A model generated the notes under the pieces. That model searched no databases. It was not told the origin of the DNA and worked only from the letters and a program-made list of their open reading frames with translations. A program made the translations under genes and the position numbers. From contig NZ_SDPV01000001.1 of the NCBI RefSeq assembly GCF_004135625.1, positions 494,501 through 558,500 of the forward strand: a stretch of DNA of 64,000 nt, written 5' to 3'. The DNA is from Pelagerythrobacter rhizovicinus. GTDB lineage: Bacteria; Pseudomonadota; Alphaproteobacteria; Sphingomonadales; Sphingomonadaceae. Below, in pieces: positions 31,978-39,953 of this stretch (within the stretch, counting starts at the first letter, position 1; every line of letters starts with the position of its first letter).

Positions 31978-33228
31978 CTAGAGGTCCGATAATCCGAGTG
32001 TTTCAAGAAGGGACGCGCGTGCCGAACGCACGTCGCGGGCCAGTGCCACGTTGCCGAGATCGGCGGGGTCGATCTGTTCCGGCCAGGCGCCGGCGATCAC
32101 GCGCTCGATCTGCTCTGCCTTCGCTTCGTCGAGCAGGAACCGCGGGTCGATGGTCGCGGGGTCGGCGACCACCCGCAACCGCAGGCAAGCCGGACCGCCT
32201 CCATTAGCCATCGACTGTCGCACATCGACCGGAATGACCTGCCGGATAGGGCCGTTGCTTGCGAGCATCGTCTCGCACCAGCCCCACACTGCTGCGCTTT
32301 CGCGGCATTCCTCCGGCACGATCAGCGCCATCTCGCCGGTGGGAAGCGTGAGGAGCTGTGCGTTGAACAAGTAGGTGCGAATGGCTTCCTCGAGGCTGAC
32401 CGCGCTTGCCGGGACTTCGACCACCTCGAGCGCGGGGAATCTCGCCCGAATCGACTCGCAGGCGCGGGCCTGGTCGGCGAAGGCCTGTTCATGCGTGAAC
32501 AGCACCCGCTCGTTCGCGACTGCGACCACGTCGTTATGAAACGCGCCCGCTTCTATCGCCGCCGGGTTCTGCTCGATGAACACGGTGCGCTCGGGATCGA
32601 GACCGTGAAGACGCGCCACCGCGCGGCTCGCCTGCTCGTGCTGGCGTGCGGGGAATTTGCCGCCCGGGCGGCCGTAGACGAACACTTCGACGCCGGACGC
32701 GCCGTGTCCCTCGCAGAACCGCATGTGATTGGCCGCGCCCTCGTCGCCGAGACTCGGCGGGATAGTGTCGTGAATCGCGAAATGCGCCGTATCGGCGAAG
32801 GCAACGTCCAATTGGCGCTTGGTGTCGGGCCATTCCTGCGCGCGGTGCAGCATGGCCGAAAGGTTGGCCGGCGTCAGATGGCAGCGCCCATCCGCCGTGT
32901 CGGGCGCGGGGCTGACGGTCGCCGCATTGGCGGTCCACATCGAGCTTGCCGACCACGCTGCGGCGAGCAGCGCACGGTCTGCCGTCTCGTCGACTGCCAG
33001 TCGCGCCAGCAGGGCATGGTTCGGGCGCGGCAGGGGGAGGAGGAAGCCCTGCGGCAGCCCGCGCGCCATGTTGCCGCGCATCTTCGCCAGTCCCTGCAGC
33101 GCCGCGGCACGCGGGTACGAGGGGCTACCCCTGTGACTTGCGCTGGCGATATTGCCGAGGCTGAGGCCCGCGTAGTTGTGGCTCGGGCCGACGATGCCGT
33201 CGAAGTTGATTTCCTGAAGCAAAGGCAT
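31978..33228 (-). CDS. astB: N-succinylarginine dihydrolase
   Basis: 416 residues. AstB converts N2-succinylarginine to N2-succinylornithine, releasing ammonia and CO2, as step two of the arginine succinyltransferase pathway. The start MPLLQEINFDGIVGPSHNYAGLS is the family opening. HNDVVAVANERVLFTHEQ carries a catalytic His, and the nucleophile Cys sits in NGGGPACLRLR near the C-terminus. Start choice: the ATG at 33228 has GGAGA immediately upstream at the edge of a palindromic repeat, while the in-frame extension beyond it translates repeat sequence. Downstream in the operon of the M20 gene and astA. Confidence 0.95.
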   Translation of the reverse strand: MPLLQEINFDGIVGPSHNYAGLSLGNIASASHRGSPSYPRAAALQGLAKMRGNMARGLPQGFLLPLPRPNHALLARLAVDETADRALLAAAWSASSMWTANAATVSPAPDTADGRCHLTPANLSAMLHRAQEWPDTKRQLDVAFADTAHFAIHDTIPPSLGDEGAANHMRFCEGHGASGVEVFVYGRPGGKFPARQHEQASRAVARLHGLDPERTVFIEQNPAAIEAGAFHNDVVAVANERVLFTHEQAFADQARACESIRARFPALEVVEVPASAVSLEEAIRTYLFNAQLLTLPTGEMALIVPEECRESAAVWGWCETMLASNGPIRQVIPVDVRQSMANGGGPACLRLRVVADPATIDPRFLLDEAKAEQIERVIAGAWPEQIDPADLGNVALARDVRSARASLLETLGLSDL

Positions 33229-33231
33229 TCT

Positions 33232-33321
33232 CCGTTCGCCCTGAGCCTGTCGAAGGGCCGCTCTTGCTTTGGTCCGTTGCACGCAGAAAGTGCGGGGCTT
33301 CGACAAGCTCAGCCCGAACGG
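33232..33321 (+). repeat. inverted pair of REP-like palindromes between astA and astB
   Basis: Two 30-base arms (33232-33261 and 33292-33321) face each other across 30 bases. Arm 1 holds CCTGAGCCTGTCGAAGGGC, and the second, read on the minus strand, holds GGGCTGAGCTTGTCGAAG. Each arm can also fold on itself. This is the REPIN-like arrangement and it fills nearly all of the astA-astB gap. A single related arm is at 39828-39854. Confidence 0.85.
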
Positions 33322-33329
33322 GTTTGAGG

Positions 33330-34346
33330 TTACCGCGCCACGCTCCACACCTCGTCGCCGGGCCCGACGCGCAGCGCCCTGGCGGCCGTCTCGTCGACGG
33401 CGAGCGTGCCCTCGGGCGTGACTTCGCGCATGCCGTAGGCCGAGCGAAAACTGTCCAGCCTGCCAGCCGCGATGATCGCGCGCTCGCCGTACTCGAGATC
33501 GCACCGCTCGATTTGATGCGCGCGCGCCTCGGTAACACTCTTCACCTGATCGGTCCGGGCGGTCATCGTCGGTCCACCGTCGAAGATGTCGACGTAGCCT
33601 TCATAGGCGAAGCCCTCGTTCTCCAGCATCTTCATCGCCGCACGGCCCGAGGGGTGCGGCAAGCCGATCACGCTGCGCGCGTCGTCGTCGAGCATCGCGA
33701 TATAGACCGGATGCTTCGGCATCAGGTCGGCGATGAACTGGTTGCCGTTGATCGCATTGAAATAGTCGGCTTCCTGGAAGCTCATTCCGAAGAAGCGTCC
33801 CGCGACCCCGTCCCAGAAGGGCGATCCGCCGCGCTCGTCGATGATCCCGCGCAGCTCTGCCAGCACGCGGTCGGCGAAGCGCAGGCGGTGCATTGCGATG
33901 AAGAGGTAGCGGCTGCGCGCCAGCAGCAGGCCCAGGCCGCCCGCGCGCTCCCCCGGATGGAGGAACAGTCCGCCGACCTCGCTGCATCCCTCCAGATCCG
34001 TCACGAGGCTGAGCAGTTCCGCGCGCACCGTGCGGTTCAGTTCCTGCGAGTGCTGCGTCAGGGTCGTCAGGCGGTAGGAGTAGAACGGCCATTGCTGACC
34101 GACCTGGGTGAAAAGCTGGCACGTGCCGCGCACCTCGCCGGTCGCGGTGTTTTCGAGCACGAGCACGAACTGATCGTCGCCGAGCGTGTCGTCGGTGCGC
34201 GCGAAGGCCTTGGCTGCGCGGTCCAGCTTGGCGGAGAGCGCATCGCGATCGGGCGGCAGGTTGGTGAACCCGCCGCCGGTGAGTTTCGCCATTTCGTAGA
34301 TCGGTTCGAGGTCGTCGGTGCGCGCGGCGCGCAGGGCGAAGGTCAA
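33330..34346 (-). CDS. astA: arginine N-succinyltransferase
   Basis: 338 residues. AstA transfers succinyl from succinyl-CoA to the alpha-amino group of arginine, the committed step of the succinyltransferase catabolic pathway. It belongs to the GNAT-like AstA family. Recognisable parts are LRAARTDDLEPIYEMAKLTGGGFTNLP at the N-terminus, RGTCQLFTQVGQQWPFYSYRL, LFLHPGERAGGLGLLLARSRYLF and FDGGPTMTA. The start is taken as TTG 34346, which overlaps the stop of the M20 hydrolase gene (TTGA), and the length then matches the family. Confidence 0.95.
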   Translation of the reverse strand: MTFALRAARTDDLEPIYEMAKLTGGGFTNLPPDRDALSAKLDRAAKAFARTDDTLGDDQFVLVLENTATGEVRGTCQLFTQVGQQWPFYSYRLTTLTQHSQELNRTVRAELLSLVTDLEGCSEVGGLFLHPGERAGGLGLLLARSRYLFIAMHRLRFADRVLAELRGIIDERGGSPFWDGVAGRFFGMSFQEADYFNAINGNQFIADLMPKHPVYIAMLDDDARSVIGLPHPSGRAAMKMLENEGFAYEGYVDIFDGGPTMTARTDQVKSVTEARAHQIERCDLEYGERAIIAAGRLDSFRSAYGMREVTPEGTLAVDETAARALRVGPGDEVWSVAR

Positions 34347-35551
34347 ATGGGGTCTCCGTTGGCGAGATGGCGCAGCACGAGCGCGCTTAGGGCGGCGCGT
34401 TCGGCGAGCGAGGATACGATTAGGAACTCGTCCGGCGAATGGATCGCGCCGCCGCGCACGCCCATGGTGTCGACCACGGGCACGCCGGTGGCGGCGATAT
34501 TGTTGCCGTCGCACACCCCGCCGGTCGATTTCCAGCCGATCTCCTGGCCGAGCGAGGCGCCGCAGTCGCGCACGAGGTCGAACAGCTTCTGCGCTCGGCG
34601 GTCGACCGGCTTGGGCGGGCGGGTGATGCCGCCGTGGCGGTGGATCGCGACTTCGTGGGCTTGCTGCACATCGCCGATCAACGCGGCGAGACCGGCTTCG
34701 AAGCCTTGCGCCGCATCGGGGCTCTTGGGCCGGATGTTGAACCGCAGCACGGCGTGGTCAGGCACGACGTTGTTGGCCGATCCGCCTTCGATCTTCGCTG
34801 GATTGACCGGGCACTCAGAATTCTGGAGCCGCTTGAGGCCCAGCACCAGCGCCGCCGCGGCGACGATCGCGTTGCGCCCGTCCTCCGGATTGCGCCCGGC
34901 ATGGGCCGAGCGGCCGGTAATGGTGAGCGAATAGTTGCCGCTACCGCCGCGGGCGTGCGCCAGCGTACCGTCGGGCAGGGCGGAGGGTTCGTAAGTCAGC
35001 GCCGCATACTTGCCGCGGGCGAGCTCCTCGATCAGCGGCGCTGAGGCGAGCGAACCGGTCTCCTCGTCCGAATTGATCATCACGTCGTAGCCGAGCTTGT
35101 GCGCATCGCCGCTCGCCTCGAACGCCGTGAGCGCGTGGAGGATCACCGCGATCCCACCCTTCATGTCGGCGAGGCCTGGGCCGTTGAGCGTGTCGTCGTC
35201 GATCCAGCGCTGTTCTTGGAACGGATGGTCGGCGGGGAAGACGGTGTCCATGTGGCCGGTCAGCAGCAACCGCCGCTCGGCCTCGGGCCGGACGCGGAGC
35301 ACGAGGTGCTGCCCGAACCGCCGTTCGACCTCGCGCCCGTCGGCGGCGATCGCGGTGACGGGGGCGGGATCGACCAGCGCGATCTTGCCAGGCAACGCGG
35401 AGAACGCCTCCGCCAGCGCATCGGCCTGCCGCGCCAGCCCATCGAGATTGTCGGTGCCGGTGTTGATGGCGCTCCAGGCCTGCACCTGCTCCAGCATCGC
35501 CTGCCGGTCGATCGCCTCGAGAATGGCTGCGCTGTCGTTATCCGGTTTCAT
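34343..35551 (-). CDS. M20 family metallohydrolase (carboxypeptidase G2-like) in the ast operon
   Basis: A 402-residue two-zinc hydrolase. Metal-site motifs are GHMDTVFPADHPF, GLADMKGG, NSDEETGS, the later YEPS and GAIHSPDEFL near the C-terminus. The GHMDTVFP form is closest to carboxypeptidase G2-like members, which cleave the bond between an acyl group and glutamate. It overlaps astA by four bases and precedes it, so arginine catabolism is its likely setting, perhaps the final desuccinylation of succinylglutamate. That role is inference. ATG 35551 is preferred over TTG 35557, with GAGG about 10 bases upstream. Confidence 0.88.
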   Translation of the reverse strand: MKPDNDSAAILEAIDRQAMLEQVQAWSAINTGTDNLDGLARQADALAEAFSALPGKIALVDPAPVTAIAADGREVERRFGQHLVLRVRPEAERRLLLTGHMDTVFPADHPFQEQRWIDDDTLNGPGLADMKGGIAVILHALTAFEASGDAHKLGYDVMINSDEETGSLASAPLIEELARGKYAALTYEPSALPDGTLAHARGGSGNYSLTITGRSAHAGRNPEDGRNAIVAAAALVLGLKRLQNSECPVNPAKIEGGSANNVVPDHAVLRFNIRPKSPDAAQGFEAGLAALIGDVQQAHEVAIHRHGGITRPPKPVDRRAQKLFDLVRDCGASLGQEIGWKSTGGVCDGNNIAATGVPVVDTMGVRGGAIHSPDEFLIVSSLAERAALSALVLRHLANGDPI

Positions 35552-35698: not shown

Positions 35699-37798
35699 AT
35701 GACCGAGACGATCGAACGGGCCGGGTTGGAGGTTCATGCCGCGTTGGCGGACTTGCTGGAGCGCGAGGTTCTGCCCGTGCTCGGGCGCGATGTGGAGGCG
35801 TTCTGGCGCGGGTTCGCCGCGCTGCTGGCCGACCTCGCGCCGCGCAATCGCGCGCTGCTGGCCAAGCGCGAGGACCTGCAGGCGAAGATCGACGCCTGGC
35901 ACCGCGAGCGGCGGGGGCAGCCGCACGACGCGGCCGCTTATCGCGCGTTCCTCGAGGAGATCGGCTATCTCGTTCCCGAGCCGGAACCGTTCACGATAGG
36001 CACCCGCGACGTGGATGCCGAGATCGCGACGATGGCCGGCCCGCAACTCGTGGTGCCGGTGCTCAACGCGCGCTTCCTGCTCAACGCCGCGAACGCGCGC
36101 TGGGGGAGCCTCTACGACGCGTTCTATGGCACCGACGCGCTCGATGCGCCACCGCCGAAGCCGGGCGGATACGATCCGGAGCGCGGCGCTGCGGTGGTCG
36201 CGCGGGTGCGGGCGTTTCTCGACGAGGCGGTGCCGCTGGCGGAGGGTAGCTGGGCGAACCTGACCGACCTGTCGGGCGAAATCCCGCTCGCTGATCAGTC
36301 GCAGCTCGCAGGCCGGACCGAGCGCGGGCCGCTGCTGGTCAACAACGGGCTGCATATCGAGATCGTCGTCGATCGCGAGCATCCGGTGGGCAAGGACGAT
36401 CCGGTCGGGATCGCCGACGTCGTGCTCGAATCCGCGCTGACGACGATCTGCGACTGCGAGGATTCCGTCGCGGCGGTCGACGGCGAGGACAAGGCGCTGG
36501 CCTACCGTAACTGGCTCGGCGTGATCCGCGGCGATCTGGAGGAGAGCTTCGAGAAGGGCGGACGGCGCCTCACCCGCAAGCTGGCGCCCGACAAGCGCTA
36601 CACCGCGCCCGACGGCAGCGACCGGAGTCTGCCGGGCCGCAGCCTGCTGTTCGTGCGCAACGTCGGCCATCTGATGACCACTCCGGCGGTCCGGCTCGCG
36701 AGCGGCGCGGAGGCGCCGGAGGGGGTGACCGACGCGGTGTTCACCTCGGCGATCGGCGCGCTCGACGTCGAAGGCCATGCGACCTGCCGCAACAGTCGCA
36801 CGGGCAGCATCTACATCGTGAAGCCGAAGATGCACGGGCCAGAGGAGTGCGCCTTCACCAACGACTTGTTCGACCGGGTCGAGGACCTGCTCGCCCTTCC
36901 GCGCCACACGATCAAGGTCGGGGTGATGGACGAAGAGCGCCGCACCAGTGCCAATCTCGCCGCCTGCATCCGCGCGGTGAAAGACCGGATCGTGTTCATC
37001 AACACCGGCTTCCTCGACCGCACCGGGGACGAGATCCACACCTCGATGCAGGCCGGGCCGATGATCCGCAAAGGGGCGATGAAATCGAGTGCCTGGCTCG
37101 ATGCCTACGAGAAGCGCAACGTCGCCATCGGGCTCGCCTGCGGCCTCTCGGGCAAGGCGCAGATCGGCAAGGGCATGTGGGCGGCGCCCGATATGATGCG
37201 CGATATGCTGGAGCAGAAGATCGGTCACCTGAAAGCCGGCGCGAACACCGCCTGGGTGCCGAGCCCGACCGCGGCAACGCTCCACGCCCTGCATTACCAC
37301 CAATTCGATGTCTTCGCGGCGCAGCGGGAGCTGGGCGAAGCGTCGGGGCTGGACGCCCTGCTGACGATCCCGCTCGCGGACGGGACGAACTGGTCCGAAG
37401 GCGAGGTGCGCGAGGAGCTCGACAACAATGCGCAAGGGCTGCTCGGCTATGTCGTGCGCTGGATCGACCAGGGCGTCGGCTGCTCGAAGGTACCCGACAT
37501 CCACGACGTCGGCCTGATGGAGGACCGCGCGACGCTGCGCATCTCCAGCCAGCACATGGCCAACTGGCTACTCCACGGCGTTTGCACGCGGGAGCAGGTC
37601 ATGGACAGCCTGCGCCGGATGGCCGCCAAGGTCGACGCGCAGAACGCGGGCGATCCGGCCTACACACCGCTCGCCGGCAACGAGGACGGACCTGCCTTCC
37701 GCGCCGCCTGCGATCTCGTGTTCAAAGGCGTCGAGCAGCCGAGCGGCTATACCGAACCGCTGCTCCACGAATGGCGTGCCGTGGCCAAGCGCGGGTAG
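35699..37798 (+). CDS. glcB: malate synthase G
   Basis: A 699-residue enzyme that condenses glyoxylate with acetyl-CoA to malate in the glyoxylate bypass or glycolate use. The length is that of the monomeric G isoform rather than A. Visible family stretches are [23 protein letters not shown], the acidic metal site [49 protein letters not shown] and the C-terminal [11 protein letters not shown]. The start has GAGGA upstream. Isocitrate lyase is not in the window. Confidence 0.97.
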
Positions 37799-39827: not shown

Positions 39828-39953
39828 CGTTCGGCCGGAGCTTGTCGAAGGGGTTTCGATGCGAATGTTCATGTCGCCATCCCGGCAAAGCCGGATCGCT
39901 GGCCGCCAGGTCGTACGTTGCTGCACCCGATCCCGGCGTTCACTGGGATGACC
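39828..39953 (+). repeat. palindromic repeats between pdxA and ksgA
   Basis: One arm of the GAGCTTGTCGAAG family lies at about 39828-39854. A decayed inverted pair of the GTCATCCCGGCGAAAGCCGGGATC family follows at 39873-39897 and 39929-39953. Together they fill most of the pdxA-ksgA gap. Confidence 0.75.

Follow-up and report, generated by a model that had tools for sequence, protein, structure and literature searches.

The last step of the AST pathway is usually carried out by AstE, an enzyme of the M14-type AstE/AspA fold that is unrelated to the M20 hydrolases. Carboxypeptidase G2 (CPG2) releases glutamate from acyl-glutamates, and DapE, an M20 enzyme, removes the succinyl group from succinyl-DAP. 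A distant relative of DapE, BT3549, is the N-succinylcitrulline desuccinylase proposed for Bacteroides arginine biosynthesis (PMC7311316). Here, we analyze an M20 gene that is coupled to astA and astB in Pelagerythrobacter rhizovicinus. Comparative genomics makes it highly probable that its product carries out the last (fifth) AST step in the stead of AstE, with N2-succinyl-L-glutamate as the predicted substrate (N2-succinyl-L-glutamate + H2O -> L-glutamate + succinate). Many alphaproteobacteria without AstE would thus probably rely on another enzyme here, one that has yet to be named.

RESULTS

The M20-astA-astB operon

The window, i.e., the whole stretch of DNA analyzed, covers 64,000 nucleotides (C1:494501-558500) of a 3.0-Mb genome that is 99.98% complete. 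The first-pass annotation had placed an M20 gene at the head of an operon with astA and astB (Table 1), had described a four-base overlap between the M20 gene and astA, and had reported astC, astD, and astE as missing from the window. All of this agrees with our analysis. The M20 stop codon and the TTG start of astA at 34346 share the bases TTGA, the identities of astA (PF04958) and astB (PF04996) were confirmed, and a clear astD and an argD/astC-type transaminase gene lie elsewhere in the genome. The M20 ORF is intact on the minus strand, from an ATG at 35551 to a TGA ending at 34343, and encodes 402 aa. Among named relatives, Pelagerythrobacter and Altererythrobacter are the nearest, with 95% identity in the M20 protein.

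TABLE 1 Coordinates of the ast operon features within the window
Feature	Position	Strand	Evidence
M20 dizinc hydrolase, NF005602/PRK07338 (proposed N-succinylglutamate desuccinylase)	34343..35551	-	NF005602 score, M20 domains, CPG2-type active site, fold
astA, arginine N-succinyltransferase, TTG start	33330..34346	-	PF04958 429 bits; TIGR03243 above cut-off
astB, N-succinylarginine dihydrolase, ATG start (from sequence)	31978..33228	-	PF04996 585 bits; PRK13281 above cut-off
astA-astB spacer with facing REP-like repeat pair	33229..33329		Repeat search

REP-like repeats (TTCGGGCTGAGCTTGTCGAAG and variants; chance expectation, 0) occur at 33235-33255 (+), 33298-33318 (-), and 39830-39850 (+), and the facing pair in the astA-astB spacer is drawn from them. 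A malate synthase G gene (1143 bits; 35699-37798, plus strand) is transcribed divergently from the operon.

The order M20-astA-astB, with M20 first, is kept in 77 of 80 related loci. Two of the remaining three end just beyond the M20 gene, and the last (L064) reads M20-astA with astB not detected. An artifact or a chance neighborhood was ruled out by this conservation, which extends down to M20 identities of 42 to 50%. The usual order in more distant loci is M20-astA-astD-astB (L095, L096, L103, L104, L105, L110, and L128 to L131), and a locus from another class (L093) reads argD/astC-M20-astA-astD-astB. G035, a member of the same family as the window, carries another ast operon on contig C5, which includes a separate M20 copy in the order M20-astC-astD-astB-astA (L127). 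The M20 gene of G338 is unlinked from its astA-astD-astB genes (L097 and L098). Genomes of the AstE type often show the order astC-astA-astD-astB-astE (L112, L113, L114, L117, L118, and L121). The M20 gene thus occupies the position of AstE in operons that are otherwise complete, and does so in more than one gene order.

Family, active site, and fold of the M20 protein

The protein matches the NCBIfam equivalog NF005602/PRK07338, which is named only "hydrolase," over its full length (residues 9 to 401 of a 404-aa ORF); the score of 582.6 bits exceeds the cut-off of 357. Both Pfam domains of the M20 architecture score above cut-off, the catalytic Peptidase_M20 (PF01546, 85 bits) and the lid M20_dimer (PF07687, 69 bits); only M20-type domains match, and no AstE/AspA-family catalytic domain was found in the protein. 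The model of the CPG2/glutamate carboxypeptidase subfamily (NF004788) gives 202.7 bits, below its cut-off of 349.

Alignment with CPG2 equates the dizinc ligands H100, D129, E164, E188, and H371 with CPG2 H112, D141, E176, E200, and H385, the catalytic E163 with E175, and the lid residues H217, N261, R274, and R311 with H229, N275, R288, and R324. All of these positions (zinc ligands, catalytic glutamate, and four lid residues) are invariant among 15 diverse members aligned. The K208 of CPG2 is not conserved in the same 15 members, which counts against the proposed function, and two arginines of the window protein, R201 and R220, are conserved and family specific, being T and A in CPG2. The functions assigned to these CPG2 residues are in part general background. 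A review describes R288, H229, and N275 of CPG2 as lid residues that make interactions, pairs R324 in its alignment with an arginine indispensable to related enzymes, and treats a glutamate at the E200 position as a mark of aminoacylases and carboxypeptidases (PMC6271292). The AlphaFold model of the M20 protein (mean pLDDT, 87.1) has CPG2 as its closest fold (Z score of 42.6, with other M20 enzymes at 34.4 or less), and the best PDB match by sequence is also CPG2.

AstE and the remaining AST genes in the genome

A genome-wide search for astE, proposed in the first-pass annotation, was run with three AstE-family models (PF04952, PF24827, and TIGR03242), each of which matched in the Escherichia coli control. 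None of them found an AstE-family protein in the whole 99.98%-complete genome, and an AstE encoded elsewhere in it was thereby ruled out. The astD gene at C1:944683 scores 604 bits against a cut-off of 579 (PRK09457, 693 bits). A transaminase gene at C2:1188222 falls below the astC cut-off and above that of the argD family; transaminases of this argD/astC type commonly fill both roles. Four proteins of the genome match NF005602, one of them above cut-off, so that other M20 paralogs are present. With its genomic link to the AST pathway, the M20 protein would fill the only step that is otherwise missing.

Distribution within the Sphingomonadales and across the phylum

AstA was found in 153 of 196 Sphingomonadales genomes, and NF005602 scored above cut-off in 149, all of them AstA positive. 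True AstE (TIGR03242, E value of 1e-10) was found in none of the 196. The looser AstE_AspA domain (PF24827) matched in 91 of these genomes, with and without AstA; two of them, G071 and G152, have an AstE/AspA-domain protein without AstA and AstB. On this distribution, AspA/AstE-like paralogs were ruled out as a hidden AstE.

Four genomes of the order carry AstA without NF005602. One of these, G037, lacks the M20 gene because its contig begins inside astA, at base 2, and its congener G022 has the M20 gene directly upstream; in G001, which has the M20 gene, M20 and astA each sit at a contig end. The other three (G009, G016, and G033; 95, 94, and 78% complete) belong to one family and have neither NF005602 above cut-off nor AstE, with astA-astD stretches that read through. 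These genomes count against the replacement; they may reflect yet another solution, a gene that has moved, or a gap in the assembly. Their loci (L099, L100, and L101) contain astA-astD without an adjoining M20 gene, and astB is also present in L099 and L101.

Across 299 genomes of the phylum, AstA occurs in 66, NF005602 above cut-off in 21, and AstE in 45 at an E value of 1e-20, 35 of which exceed the curated cut-off. The 66 AstA-positive genomes divide into 21 with NF005602 only, 44 with AstE only, none with both, and 1 with neither (G257), counts for which Fisher tests ignore common descent and therefore yield p-values that overstate independence. The co-occurrence represents few independent events because much of it falls within one clade. 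NF005602 scored above cut-off in none of the 233 AstA-negative phylum genomes, and a single AstA-negative genome (G481) has an AstE-like protein.

The exception, G257, has astB and, adjoining it, a divergent ORF of 405 aa (L106:6268-7485, minus strand) with the motifs HGNE, LDIH, and GIEAG of the M14/AstE type. This ORF is not recognized by any Pfam or NCBIfam model, and its only match is a weak one to MpaA (E value, 0.019). It is a lead only and possibly a diverged AstE.

Phylogeny of AstA

In the AstA tree, the proteins whose operons include the M20 gene are united in a single group, separate from the AstE-type AstA proteins (support, 100/98), and the group also contains those of G257, G394, G009, G016, and G033. 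The tree is unrooted, so that the direction of change is an interpretation, and it suggests a single ancestral displacement that later moved with the operon to the class of G394. A second swap in G257 is possible.

DISCUSSION

Probable replacement of AstE by an M20 hydrolase

The proposal of the first-pass annotation that the M20 enzyme is a nonhomologous substitute for AstE gains support from the absence of AstE, the complementary distribution of the two families, the complete operons that carry the M20 gene, and the conserved CPG2-type active site. Taken together with the strict co-occurrence with AstA, the mutual exclusion with AstE, the fold, the AstA clade, and the precedent of DapE and BT3549, these lines of genomic evidence strongly support the putative replacement. 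Most likely, an M20 enzyme would thereby have displaced a nonorthologous enzyme of the M14 type. On a broader scale, we consider it likely that AST-using alphaproteobacteria have an M20 succinylglutamate desuccinylase instead of AstE through a class-wide displacement that became fixed in an ancestor from which one clade of AstA descends, that the complete operon then reached another class (G394), and that G257 seemingly swapped to an M14-type enzyme encoded beside astB.

The M20 enzyme could instead desuccinylate another AST intermediate, for example, converting N2-succinylornithine to ornithine in a shortcut that would spare AstC and AstD. ArgE and DapE are established M20 enzymes acting on such substrates, and in the family of the window, the operon comprises only M20, astA, and astB, with astD located elsewhere. 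However, astD shares the operon with the M20 gene in other lineages, L093 and L127 also include an astC/argD-type gene, and the full route to succinylglutamate is therefore made there; the present genome likewise encodes an AstD above cut-off. The shortcut would also leave succinylglutamate without a hydrolase, and the protein is most similar to CPG2, not to ArgE or DapE. We regard such a role as quite improbable.

Another protein, either a diverged M14/AstE-like enzyme or an M20 paralog, might carry out the last step, with the M20 enzyme serving an accessory function, e.g., on folate or peptide glutamyl bonds. The ORF of G257, in which AstE motifs are missed by all AstE models, indicates that diverged versions can escape detection, and the additional NF005602 matches in the genome could provide the paralog. 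An accessory function leaves unexplained, however, the near one-to-one occurrence with AstA, the absence from the sampled AstA-negative genomes, and the exclusion by AstE, and we assign it a very small chance. The AstE/AspA-domain protein might alternatively be the true desuccinylase in the many Sphingomonadales genomes that have it (the 91 with PF24827 matches). This is refuted for the present genome, which has no PF24827 match; elsewhere, these proteins occur with and without AstA (as in G071 and G152), and none passes TIGR03242 at an E value of 1e-10, so that the likelihood of this explanation is close to negligible. The M20 hydrolase as succinylglutamate desuccinylase is the reading that we retain.

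In the mechanism that we propose by homology, a water molecule would be activated between two zinc ions held by H100, D129, E164, E188, and H371, and E163 would act as the general base for attack on the succinyl amide. The glutamate half of the substrate would be held by the lid residues R311, N261, H217, and R274. That R201 and R220 might hold the carboxylate of the succinyl group is a guess.

The proposed function would fill a step that seems to be missing from almost every AstA-bearing Sphingomonadales genome examined and from related lineages, Caulobacter among them; models built from these genomes would score the AST pathway as incomplete. The function would also give meaning to an equivalog now named just "hydrolase" and offer a clean case of convergent replacement, in which an M20 fold stands in for one of the M14 type while the other enzymes of the operon stay the same. 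No publication that links NF005602 to succinylglutamate turned up in our literature search, which did not extend to supplements, most journals behind a subscription, or the Fitness Browser, and an earlier annotation could exist there. The available parts of PMC9007349, PMC7311316, and PMC4830024 make no claim of a succinylglutamate function for NF005602.

Comparison with known systems

The closest known system is CPG2 (glucarpidase; PDB 1cg2 and 6xj5), which shares the two-domain M20 fold over 381 aligned residues at 27 to 28% identity, together with all dizinc ligands, the catalytic glutamate, and the residues H229, N275, R288, and R324. Hydrolysis of the amide bond of an acyl-glutamate is expected of both enzymes. 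They differ at K208, which is not conserved, at family-specific residues such as R201 and R220 (T and A in CPG2), and in their NCBIfam families, the "glutamate carboxypeptidase" model NF004788 giving about 203 bits against its cut-off of 349; the substrate of CPG2 is folyl-Glu, whereas succinyl-Glu is predicted for the M20 protein. AstE (TIGR03242) acts at the same point of the AST pathway and has a complementary distribution in AstA-positive genomes, but it belongs to an unrelated protein family and is absent from this genome and from the 196 genomes of the order. DapE, likewise a dizinc enzyme of the M20 family, takes the succinyl group off an amino acid and has the same fold (Z score, 30 to 32); it differs in sequence (about 20 to 26% identity; 90 bits against a cut-off of 284), and the M20 gene is not linked to lysine synthesis. 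BT3549 of Bacteroides thetaiotaomicron is a DapE-related desuccinylase candidate in an arginine metabolism with succinylated intermediates, but for the biosynthetic direction and another substrate (PMC7311316). Desuccinylases of the M20 type are known; what would be new is an AST pathway that retains the same reactions but ends with an unrelated enzyme.
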